Position numbers and translations under genes: made by a program. From Deltaproteobacteria bacterium (lineage in GTDB: Bacteria > Myxococcota_A > Polyangia > Haliangiales > Haliangiaceae), in assembly GCA_020630875.1 (NCBI GenBank), contig JAHDIH010000002.1, positions 495,332 through 559,331 on the forward strand: a DNA stretch of 64,000 bases. Direction: 5' to 3'. Positions 9,371-25,777 of the stretch are shown in pieces; the stretch's first letter is position 1, and every line of letters starts with the position of its first letter. The notes beneath the pieces were generated by a model that made no database searches, was not told the origin of the DNA, and was given only the letters and a program-made list of their open reading frames with translations.

Positions 9371-10119
9371 TGGACTTAACACTTAAAGTATGGCGACAAG
9401 GAAGTGAAAAGGCTAAAGGGTCTTTTCAAACGATCAAGGCGACAGGCATCAAACCAGAGATGTCCTTTTTGGAAATGCTTGACGTTGTAAATGAGCAACT
9501 CAATGGAAACTCGAAAGAGCCGGTGGCATTTGACAGTGATTGTCGTGAAGGAATCTGCGGCACGTGTTCCATGGTAATTAACGGTCGCCCGCATGGACCT
9601 GACGCGGGAACTACAGCGTGCCAATTGCATATGAGACGTTTCAAAGATGGTGATACCATTACCATTGAGCCGTGGCGCGCAGCCGCATTTCCTGTGCTCA
9701 AAGACTTGGTCGTCGACCGCCAAGCACTAGACGATATTATCGCTGCCGGCGGTTACATCAGCCAAAACTGCGGGTCAGCACCAGATGCCAACGCAATACC
9801 GGTGCCTAAAGAGAAAGCGGATAAAGCTTTTGAAGCAGCAACATGCATAGGATGTGGGGCTTGCGTAGCCGCCTGTCCGAATAGTGCAGCAATGCTATTT
9901 ACTGCTGCAAAGTTGACTCACTTGCATGAGCTTCCACAAGGTCAAGCAGAGAAACAAGAGCGTACGCTAAAGATGGTTGACGCTATGGATGCTGCCGGAT
10001 TTGGAAACTGCACCAACCTCTACGAGTGCGAGGCCGCCTGTCCGAAGAATATTGATCGCGAGGTTATTGCGAAGATGAATCGGGCGTACACCAAAGCCTC
10101 TCTCTTCAAACGAAAGTAA
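9370..10119 (+). CDS. sdhB: succinate dehydrogenase iron-sulfur subunit
   Basis: A 249-residue protein carrying electrons from FAD to the b hemes. The N-terminal ferredoxin domain has the [2Fe-2S] ligands in [14 protein letters not shown] and the later cysteine in [11 protein letters not shown]. The C-terminal helical domain has [15 protein letters not shown] for [4Fe-4S] and [15 protein letters not shown] for [3Fe-4S]. Its start overlaps the sdhA stop. The operon ends here; a structured repeat begins 8 nt after the stop codon and may shape the 3' end of the message. Confidence 0.97.
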
Positions 10120-10127
10120 GTAGTCTC

Positions 10128-10270
10128 GGTAGAATGTCCGGGCGCGGCGTTATGTGAGACCTCGTGACCAAGAGGTCACGTCGGTTCCTCGGATTTTCAT
10201 CCGAGCTGACAAGCCTTGCGCTCGAAGCATTCTACCTTCGCCAATGGGCTGGCTTGGATTTCATCCAAGC
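10128..10270 (+). ncRNA. structured intergenic element, copy A (candidate RNA motif)
   Basis: Four stems can be drawn. P1: GGTAGAATG (10128-10136) with CATTCTACC (10228-10236), enclosing the rest. P2: CGTGACC-AAGA-GGTCACG (10163-10180). P3: CTCGGAT-TTTC-ATCCGAG (10188-10205). P4, outside P1: GCTTGGAT-TTC-ATCCAAGC (10252-10270). Between stems lie blocks nearly identical to copy B at 25639: GGCGTTAYGYGAGACCTCG (from 10146), TCGGTT (10181) and CAAGCCTTGCG (10210). Stem bases differ from copy B but pairing is kept, which argues for a conserved structure. It may be a 3'UTR element, a small RNA or a palindromic repeat; orientation relative to sdhB is sense. Confidence 0.7.
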
Positions 10271-24513: not shown

Positions 24514-25629
24514 ATGAGAGTAGTGCTGCTGACAATATTGATGAGTTTGGCTGTTACTTCTTGGGGCGAGTCGATAGCTGTGGTGGGACTCGATCCGGAA
24601 GGTGAAAACTTGACCGACGGCGATATGAAAACAGCGAAACGACTTACGCTAAAGATGCGTGACGCCGTAAAAGAAGGAGCGGTATCAGGGGAACTTTCTG
24701 AGCGTGGCGGTCGTGACTTATTCGAGCTAAAACTTTTGTACGATTGCTCTTTTGTAGAGCCCAATTGCCTCAAGAAAGTCGGAAAGAACCTCGGAGCGGA
24801 AAAGCTGGTATACGGCACCGTAAAGATGGAAATGAGTACGGTCTTTCTGTCGCTTTTCTTGTTCGATGTGGCTGAAGGCAGGTACGTGAAGTCATTTACA
24901 GAGAGAGTTCCGCGGGCGGATCTCGACGCCAGTTATGGGAAGAAACTGATGCGAAGGCTCTTTGGAGTTCCGAATACAGGTATTGTGGAAATAGCAGTTG
25001 AAGACGTTCCCCGTGGTGCTCAAGTGTTGGTAGATGGTACGGCCGTACCGCAAGTGAGCCAAAACAGAGTGGAGTTACCCGTGGGAACCAGCATTGTGGA
25101 AATTCGTTCCAAAGACGGGCGACGGTTTCAAAAGCAAGTGGTGGTGAAAGAGGGAAGTGTCGCGATGCTTTCTGGAGAGTTTCCATCTTCCAAGAAGGCT
25201 AAGCGTGACACCAACAAAGTACTTTTTTGGACCGCCGTGGCCGCAACCGGTGCCAGTGGTATTGCAGCTACAATCTACGGGACTCGCGTACAAGGCTTCG
25301 AACGAGACAAAGAAAAGGCATTGACGTCTCTCGCCGGAGATGGAGTCTTTATCAACAACAACGACGTCTGTGCTGGAGCCAAAGGTTTGTCAGGTCGCAG
25401 CGAGTACGCTCAAATCAACACTGCGTGCAGCAAGGGACAACGTAGTGCCAAGGCGACGAACGTGCTCCTTGGTGTGACGGCCGCCACCACCGCTGCCGCC
25501 GGATACTTTTTCTACAAAGCTTACGTTGCAAAGAAAAAGGGCACTAGCGATGTGGCACCTCCTGCAGTCACTGTGGTTCCGAGTATTGGCAAAGATAGTT
25601 TGGGTGCCGGTCTTACCATCGAATTCTAG
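24514..25629 (+). CDS. periplasmic PEGA-domain protein
   Basis: A 371-residue protein with a signal peptide (MRVVLLTILMSLAVTSWG/ES). Residues 20-150 form an alpha/beta domain resembling the penicillin-binding-activator/TolB-like N-terminal fold seen in deltaproteobacterial PEGA proteins ('CSFVEPNCLKKVGKNLGAEKLVYGTV'). A PEGA-like repeat follows (about 155-225: VEIAVEDVPRGAQVLVDGTAV). Then come two hydrophobic segments around residues 240-255 and 315-330. TAGGGT ends 6 nt before ATG. A structured repeat begins 9 nt after the stop. Confidence 0.7.
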   Translation: MRVVLLTILMSLAVTSWGESIAVVGLDPEGENLTDGDMKTAKRLTLKMRDAVKEGAVSGELSERGGRDLFELKLLYDCSFVEPNCLKKVGKNLGAEKLVYGTVKMEMSTVFLSLFLFDVAEGRYVKSFTERVPRADLDASYGKKLMRRLFGVPNTGIVEIAVEDVPRGAQVLVDGTAVPQVSQNRVELPVGTSIVEIRSKDGRRFQKQVVVKEGSVAMLSGEFPSSKKAKRDTNKVLFWTAVAATGASGIAATIYGTRVQGFERDKEKALTSLAGDGVFINNNDVCAGAKGLSGRSEYAQINTACSKGQRSAKATNVLLGVTAATTAAAGYFFYKAYVAKKKGTSDVAPPAVTVVPSIGKDSLGAGLTIEF

Positions 25630-25638
25630 ATCTCGCTC

Positions 25639-25777
25639 GCTAGGATAGTTCATTCGTGGCGTTACGCGAGACCTCGTGGACATTAGTCCACGTCGGTTGA
25701 CTTGGATTTTCATCCAAGCTCGCAAGCCTTGCGACTGATTATCCTAGCTTCGCTAGGGCTTGGATTTCCATCCAAGC
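25639..25777 (+). ncRNA. structured intergenic element, copy B (candidate RNA motif)
   Basis: Same architecture as the element at 10128. P1: GCTAGGATA (25639-25647) with TATCCTAGC (25740-25748). P2: CGTGGAC-ATTA-GTCCACG (25675-25692). P3: CTTGGAT-TTTC-ATCCAAG (25701-25718). P4: GCTTGGAT-TTCC-ATCCAAGC (25758-25777). Conserved junctions start at 25658 (GGCGTTACGCGAGACCTCG), 25693 (TCGGTT) and 25723 (CAAGCCTTGCG). Relative to copy A, P1 shows three compensated pairs, P2 two and P3 one. Here a second hairpin CCTAG-CTTCG-CTAGG (25743-25757) could compete with P1. It lies between two convergent genes, sense to the PEGA gene. Confidence 0.7.

Follow-up and report, generated by a model that had tools for sequence, protein, structure and literature searches.

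A foldback repeat abutting stop codons in a Haliangiaceae genome, probably a new MITE-type family

The sdhB gene in a 64,000-nucleotide stretch of Haliangiaceae DNA (hereafter the window) is directly followed by a copy of a dispersed foldback repeat; the repeat is probably a new family of the MITE type, with ends that restore a TAG stop codon upon insertion. The repeat family is real and, as far as the Rfam, phage, plasmid and viral collections show, undescribed. It belongs to a known kind, the bacterial MITE, with an unusually strict position at stop codons, and it is probably not a new regulatory RNA. An earlier note on this DNA had offered several options under the heading of a structured RNA motif; among them, a palindromic repeat family is the one that we favour. 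The class of structured RNA motif found no support, because five copies lie antisense to the gene that they abut, the stems show no preference for G.U pairs, and the relatives of the repeat are TA/CTAG-bounded MITEs that occur in bursts.

Fold and covariation of the repeat

The segment 10126-10275 of the window, which contains copy A, has a minimum free energy of -72.3 kcal/mol compared to -49.1 kcal/mol for shuffled sequences (z -6.0), and copy B folds in like manner (z -7.3), confirming the fold at the place where it had been proposed. The repeat consists of a closing stem, P1, around two hairpins, P2 and P3, which form a three-way junction with conserved unpaired segments inside. An element of four stems had been described; P1, P2 and P3 indeed make up the core, whereas P4 is a separate hairpin outside it. 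Likewise, a start 8 nt after the sdhB stop holds for the paired region, but the conserved 5' edge lies nearly at the stop codon itself. The covariance model match of copy A spans 10122-10244 (116 bits). The features of copies A and B are as follows:

10117..10119, + strand: stop codon TAA of sdhB, 1 nt ahead of the TAG at the 5' edge of the element
10121..10244, + strand: copy A of the repeat, with 5' edge TAGTC-TCGG, P1, P2, P3 and 3' edge CTTCGC
10121-10123, + strand: TAG at the 5' edge of copy A, the conserved repeat edge nearly touching the sdhB stop
10128..10147, + strand: copy A, 5' arm of P1, outer and inner part, from fold and covariation
10148..10158, + strand: copy A, conserved and mostly unpaired junction, CGTTATGTGAG (family form GGCGTTAYGCGAG)
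10159..10185, + strand: copy A, P2 hairpin, both-side changes in 9 of 10 pairs among copies
10188..10205, + strand: copy A, P3 hairpin, both-side changes in 6 of 6 modelled pairs among copies
10213..10237, + strand: copy A, 3' arm of P1, holding the conserved GCCTTGCG and ATTCTACC
10252..10270, + strand: copy A, P4 hairpin (GCTTGGAT TTC ATCCAAGC), outside the core
25627..25629, + strand: TAG stop of the 371-aa gene ahead of copy B
25633..25756, + strand: copy B of the repeat, beginning 3 nt past the stop, with CTAG at its 3' edge
25758..25777, + strand: copy B, P4 hairpin, its stem sequence the same as that of its P3
25779..25847, + strand: degenerate partial second copy 3' of copy B, a tandem duplication of the 3' half, read by eye

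The matched stem changes that the earlier note had seen between copies A and B are real and extend well past these two. Among 23 aligned genomic copies, 93.4% of the cells in the 34 modelled pairs are paired, and both-side changes occur in 28 of the 34 pairs (shuffles average 16). Double-change cells number 142, which none of 500 shuffles reached, compared to 37.5 in shuffles. The covariation score of 0.497 compares with 0.146 in shuffles and less than 0.09 with slid partners. When the partners are slid by 1-3 columns, pairing falls to ~31-36%. Single-sequence folding also pairs GCGAG with CTCGC; this pairing is lost in some copies, where GCTCG stands instead, and the stretch behaves as conserved unpaired sequence. 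In the consensus, the closing stem TAGAAT/ATTCTA sits 7 nt inside each edge, and the ends read TCGCTCGnTAGAAT..ATTCTAnCTTCGCT. No Rfam family matched the repeat at gathering or permissive thresholds (E up to 5), in keeping with the earlier observation that it resembled no known riboswitch or ribozyme.

A P4 hairpin stands behind 14 of 20 copies compared to 90 of 646 other genes (p 4e-8). Its stem differs by copy, being GTCGCG/CGCGAC in some and GCTTG/CAAGC in others, and in several copies it is the same or nearly the same as that of P3; where it resembles P3, P4 looks like a partial 3' duplication. Partial tandem duplications are also found on the 3' side of copies. A role as an intrinsic terminator only was discarded, since the repeat core has no T-run and only some of the P4 hairpins are followed by one. 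It should be noted that second, tandem copies lie behind the H+-pyrophosphatase gene (L049:6575-6690) and the lexA gene (L048:8754-8805), the latter running into an N run of the assembly.

Copies in the source genome and their position at gene ends

The source genome (4.07 Mb, 17 contigs, an assembly with 6.1% estimated contamination) was searched, with genes taken from simple longest-ORF calls. BLAST gave 20 matches to the repeat. A covariance model and a genome search had been proposed by the earlier note, and both were carried out: the model (R1), built from 17 copies, gave 25 matches, 22 strong and 3 weak or partial. One strong match is an exact duplicate within a region present on both C7 and C13, leaving 21 distinct full copies and a few degraded ones. 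The two regions (C7:23000-35000, L057; C13:113000-125000, L058) are in opposite orientation and share their genes, the lengths of these and an identical repeat copy, reflecting either a duplication or an assembly artefact. The copies, ~120 bp in size and non-coding, are dispersed over unrelated sites and are 75-80% identical, yet still paired.

A same-strand stop codon marks the start of the repeat in all 15 distinct copies adjoining protein genes (14 full copies and a short one behind dnaK). They begin 0-13 nt past the stop or overlap it by up to 11 nt, a placement expected for 3.5% of copies at a random intergenic position and orientation. The stops are TAG in 11 cases, TAA in 4 and TGA in none, compared to 284/236/203 in a sample of the genome (p=0.007 for the absence of TGA). 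The genes are mostly core genes, coding for SdhB, EF-Tu (tuf), DnaK, NDK, IMPDH (guaB), RelA/SpoT, LexA, ThiC, H+-pyrophosphatase, RmuC, a 4Fe-4S protein and four proteins without a Pfam match. At the 5' edge, the TA often belongs to the stop codon itself, and there is no clear target duplication; a TA past the 3' edge is found in only ~5 of 23 copies, and some copies carry GTAG at the 5' edge. For comparison, CTAG was the stop of a long ORF in only 114 of 2035 cases over 0.86 Mb of this genome.

Seven further copies lie within a 19-tRNA array on one strand of C9 (L046:8410-16386, ~304-312 kb of the contig). One stands directly 3' of the CCA end of tRNA-Pro, five are antisense and begin, at their 5' edge, 3-12 nt away from the 5' end of a tRNA; the last is degraded and lies apart from the tRNAs. 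Given these antisense copies, the fixed relation is the 5' edge abutting a gene, not a fixed sense of transcription. The array also contains an RNA-ligase-family gene (PF09414, 347 aa, L046:12659-13702), and short tandem repeats with GTCGCG..CGCGAC hairpins occur between tRNA genes, 3' of copies (L046:10085-10260 and the 11774 side).

No other dispersed non-coding family with at least 5 copies was found in the 0.86 Mb, where the remaining repeats are coding. The sole other abundant ones are repetitive stretches on C9 (~275-280 kb and ~365-372 kb) and C16 (~53-56 kb and ~101-105 kb), apparently encoding Cys-rich and Asp-rich repeat proteins.

Distribution, ends and transposase traces among relatives

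The 3' side of sdhB is free of the element in 24 of 24 family relatives having the gene; two of them, G001 and G012, have a plain terminator behind the stop. Model R1 was run on a sample of 379 genomes from the phylum, and at E<=0.001 it found matches in the source genome and G110 only. The distribution is thus patchy and bursty: most relatives have no copy, G012 has 2-3, G110 has 11, and G001 has 33 and 43 matches to two related variants, with 396 and 518 unscored first-look candidates that suggest more copies than these. A repeat pattern scan of GTDB contigs returned four hits, none fitting the covariance model, and the viral contigs, phage and plasmid collections held no match.

The G001 elements are ~175 bp long with CTAG at both ends. 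In G110, the 11 alignable copies have inverted ends CAGCAACC..GGCCGCTG, many adjoined by TA, and in G012 two close copies have the form TA-GAGC..GCTC-TA. Terminal inverted repeats are clear in G001 and G110, and TA or CTAG flanks both sides in G001, G012 and part of G110. The first base after TA is G in the forms of the source genome, G001 and G012, and C in G110. Pairwise similarity of the source-genome family to the G001 and G012 elements is weak; in 91 kb of G001 loci, the best R1 matches fall mostly on the G001 elements and in register. Through this covariance model, the search supports kinship between the source-genome family and the G001 elements.

Association with stop codons recurs in part of these relatives. 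At 27 of 82 termini in G001, an ORF of at least 120 codons runs into the element and ends on its terminal TAG; of the other CTAGs at the same loci, 40 of 257 serve as such a stop, either strand counted (Fisher p 8e-4). Of the two G012 copies, one starts within its gene's TAG stop codon and the other 11 nt past a stop. In G110, no such association stood out.

We found no IS630 (DDE_3) transposase in the source genome, nor any Y1_Tnp (PF01797), for which the same search was positive in 5 of 14 control genomes. G001 holds a relic of an IS630-type transposase with a MITE end joined on its 5' side (64 bp, 98%), and it is on this one relic that the IS630 link rests. The relic lies at L189:1271-1735 (C40); its opposite side bears a MITE-like terminus, GATCCAGACACGAG. 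A longer IS630-type frame in the same genome (L187) carried none of the tested MITE ends.

Origin and upkeep of the repeat

A MITE mobilised by a TA-target transposase would agree with the TA/CTAG ends, the inverted repeats and a presence that is patchy and comes in bursts. The element would be a ~120 bp non-coding foldback, made of the closing stem and two hairpins with TA/TAG-bounded ends, that was probably spread in the distant past by an IS630/Tc1-like transposase no longer found in the source genome. As the element begins with G, inserting it at the TA of either stop, TAA or TAG, would give TA+G, that is TAG, and leave the protein unchanged. Insertion in TA, rebuilding TAG, would account for stops that are TAG or TAA and never TGA, for the exact position and for survival at housekeeping genes; we infer this for the source-genome copies, and likewise which transposase family was involved, how the events were ordered and that pairing is kept at the DNA level. 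Insertions at stops and tRNA edges may have survived while others were purged. The stop position is far stricter in the source genome than in G001 and exceeds what target preference alone explains; long purging of other copies is probably part of the cause. These observations suggest that essential genes may harbour a transposon harmlessly if it inserts at the TA of their stop codon and restores TAG. The earlier note had also considered that the stems might all be terminal palindromes of a transposable element. This is largely the case, but the internal three-way junction and the conserved unpaired segments exceed simple terminal palindromes.

Could the repeat instead be a cis-acting 3'UTR RNA, or the source of a 3'UTR-derived small RNA, whose fold would act behind highly expressed genes by stabilising the mRNA end, influencing termination or binding a protein? 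The sense orientation of every protein-gene copy directly past its stop, the mostly core hosts, the frequent P4 hairpin and strong covariation together with conserved unpaired junctions would all suit such a role. We nevertheless consider it unlikely, as the stop-regenerating ends account for the position, the element is missing at sdhB of all relatives and, in the tRNA array, five copies lie antisense to the adjoining tRNA. Moreover, an RNA fold is expected to tolerate G.U far above A.C. In the repeat stems, G.U and A.C cells stand at 18:14, and at 11:11 in the gene copies alone (a small sample), P3 being excluded for its uncertain alignment; in tRNA stems of the same genome, with the register picked to maximise Watson-Crick pairs, the count is 30:4 (Fisher p=0.004). 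Since the alignment was fitted by a G.U-accepting model, the absence of a G.U excess is conservative, and pairing therefore seems to be kept at the DNA level; the covariation looks like the maintenance of DNA hairpins. Although compensatory change as strong as that in the 23 copies usually counts as proof of RNA function, it is seen here in a dispersed mobile-type repeat. This calls for caution in RNA discovery, and the G.U:A.C ratio helps to separate RNA function from a DNA repeat.

What keeps the pairing at the DNA level may be selection for hairpins while copies transpose, or else repair of the palindromes through template switching, which is known to create and restore stems (PMC8794818). 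That the compensatory changes are mutational, with replication template switching rewriting one arm from the other, is a plausible though tentative explanation; it is compatible with MITE identity and competes only with the reading of covariation as selection. The equal G.U and A.C counts, the 3'-side tandem duplications and the swapping of whole stems between copies, as for the two P4 forms, speak for it, but the unpaired junction segments are conserved too, and arm repair leaves these unexplained. Old divergence with pairing retained could also mean selection in place, which counts against the MITE-type reading. In this lineage, a mobile folded repeat may have become a domesticated gene-end module at core, probably highly expressed genes and the tRNA array. 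Its conserved three-way-junction core would then act as a DNA site or in transcript ends, and the stop-regenerating ends would have been its route there; we hold this to be improbable. If true, a repeat would have turned into a gene-end part.

Among known systems, REP/BIME elements are single short hairpins tied to Y1 transposases. The repeat resembles them in being palindromic and extragenic and in adjoining stop codons, and the GTAG at some 5' edges also recalls them. An element of this type moved by a Y1 (RAYT/IS200-type) transposase is nonetheless very unlikely: Y1_Tnp was absent from the source genome, the repeat is larger and contains a three-way junction, and TA/CTAG borders the terminal inverted repeats of its relatives on either side. 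In Escherichia coli, some REP/BIME copies lie at most 15 nt from a stop codon and can affect translation (PMC12306157). Integron attC sites were rejected, as RYYYAAC/GTTRRRY core boxes are absent from the consensus ends and the hosts are core genes (sdhB, tuf), not cassette-type ones.

A review of bacterial MITEs covers those that end in 5'-TA-3' and have folded transcripts, and ties RUP to IS630-Spn1 (PMC2229807); RUP is linked to the IS630 transposase (PMC2229807, PMC3049150). In its features, the repeat is like RUP, Correia/NEMIS and ERIC in being under 200 bp, non-coding, dispersed and foldback, and probably in its TA ends. It differs from them by being GC-rich rather than AT-rich, by its three-way-junction body, by its near-exclusive stop position and by a host genome in which no transposase was found. 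BOX of Streptococcus pneumoniae, also dispersed, likewise supplies gene stop codons, giving the stop at the 3' end in 36 of 58 overlapping CDSs (PMC3049150); it is, however, built of modular boxA, boxB and boxC, and only part of its copies lie at stops, compared to all the protein-gene copies here.
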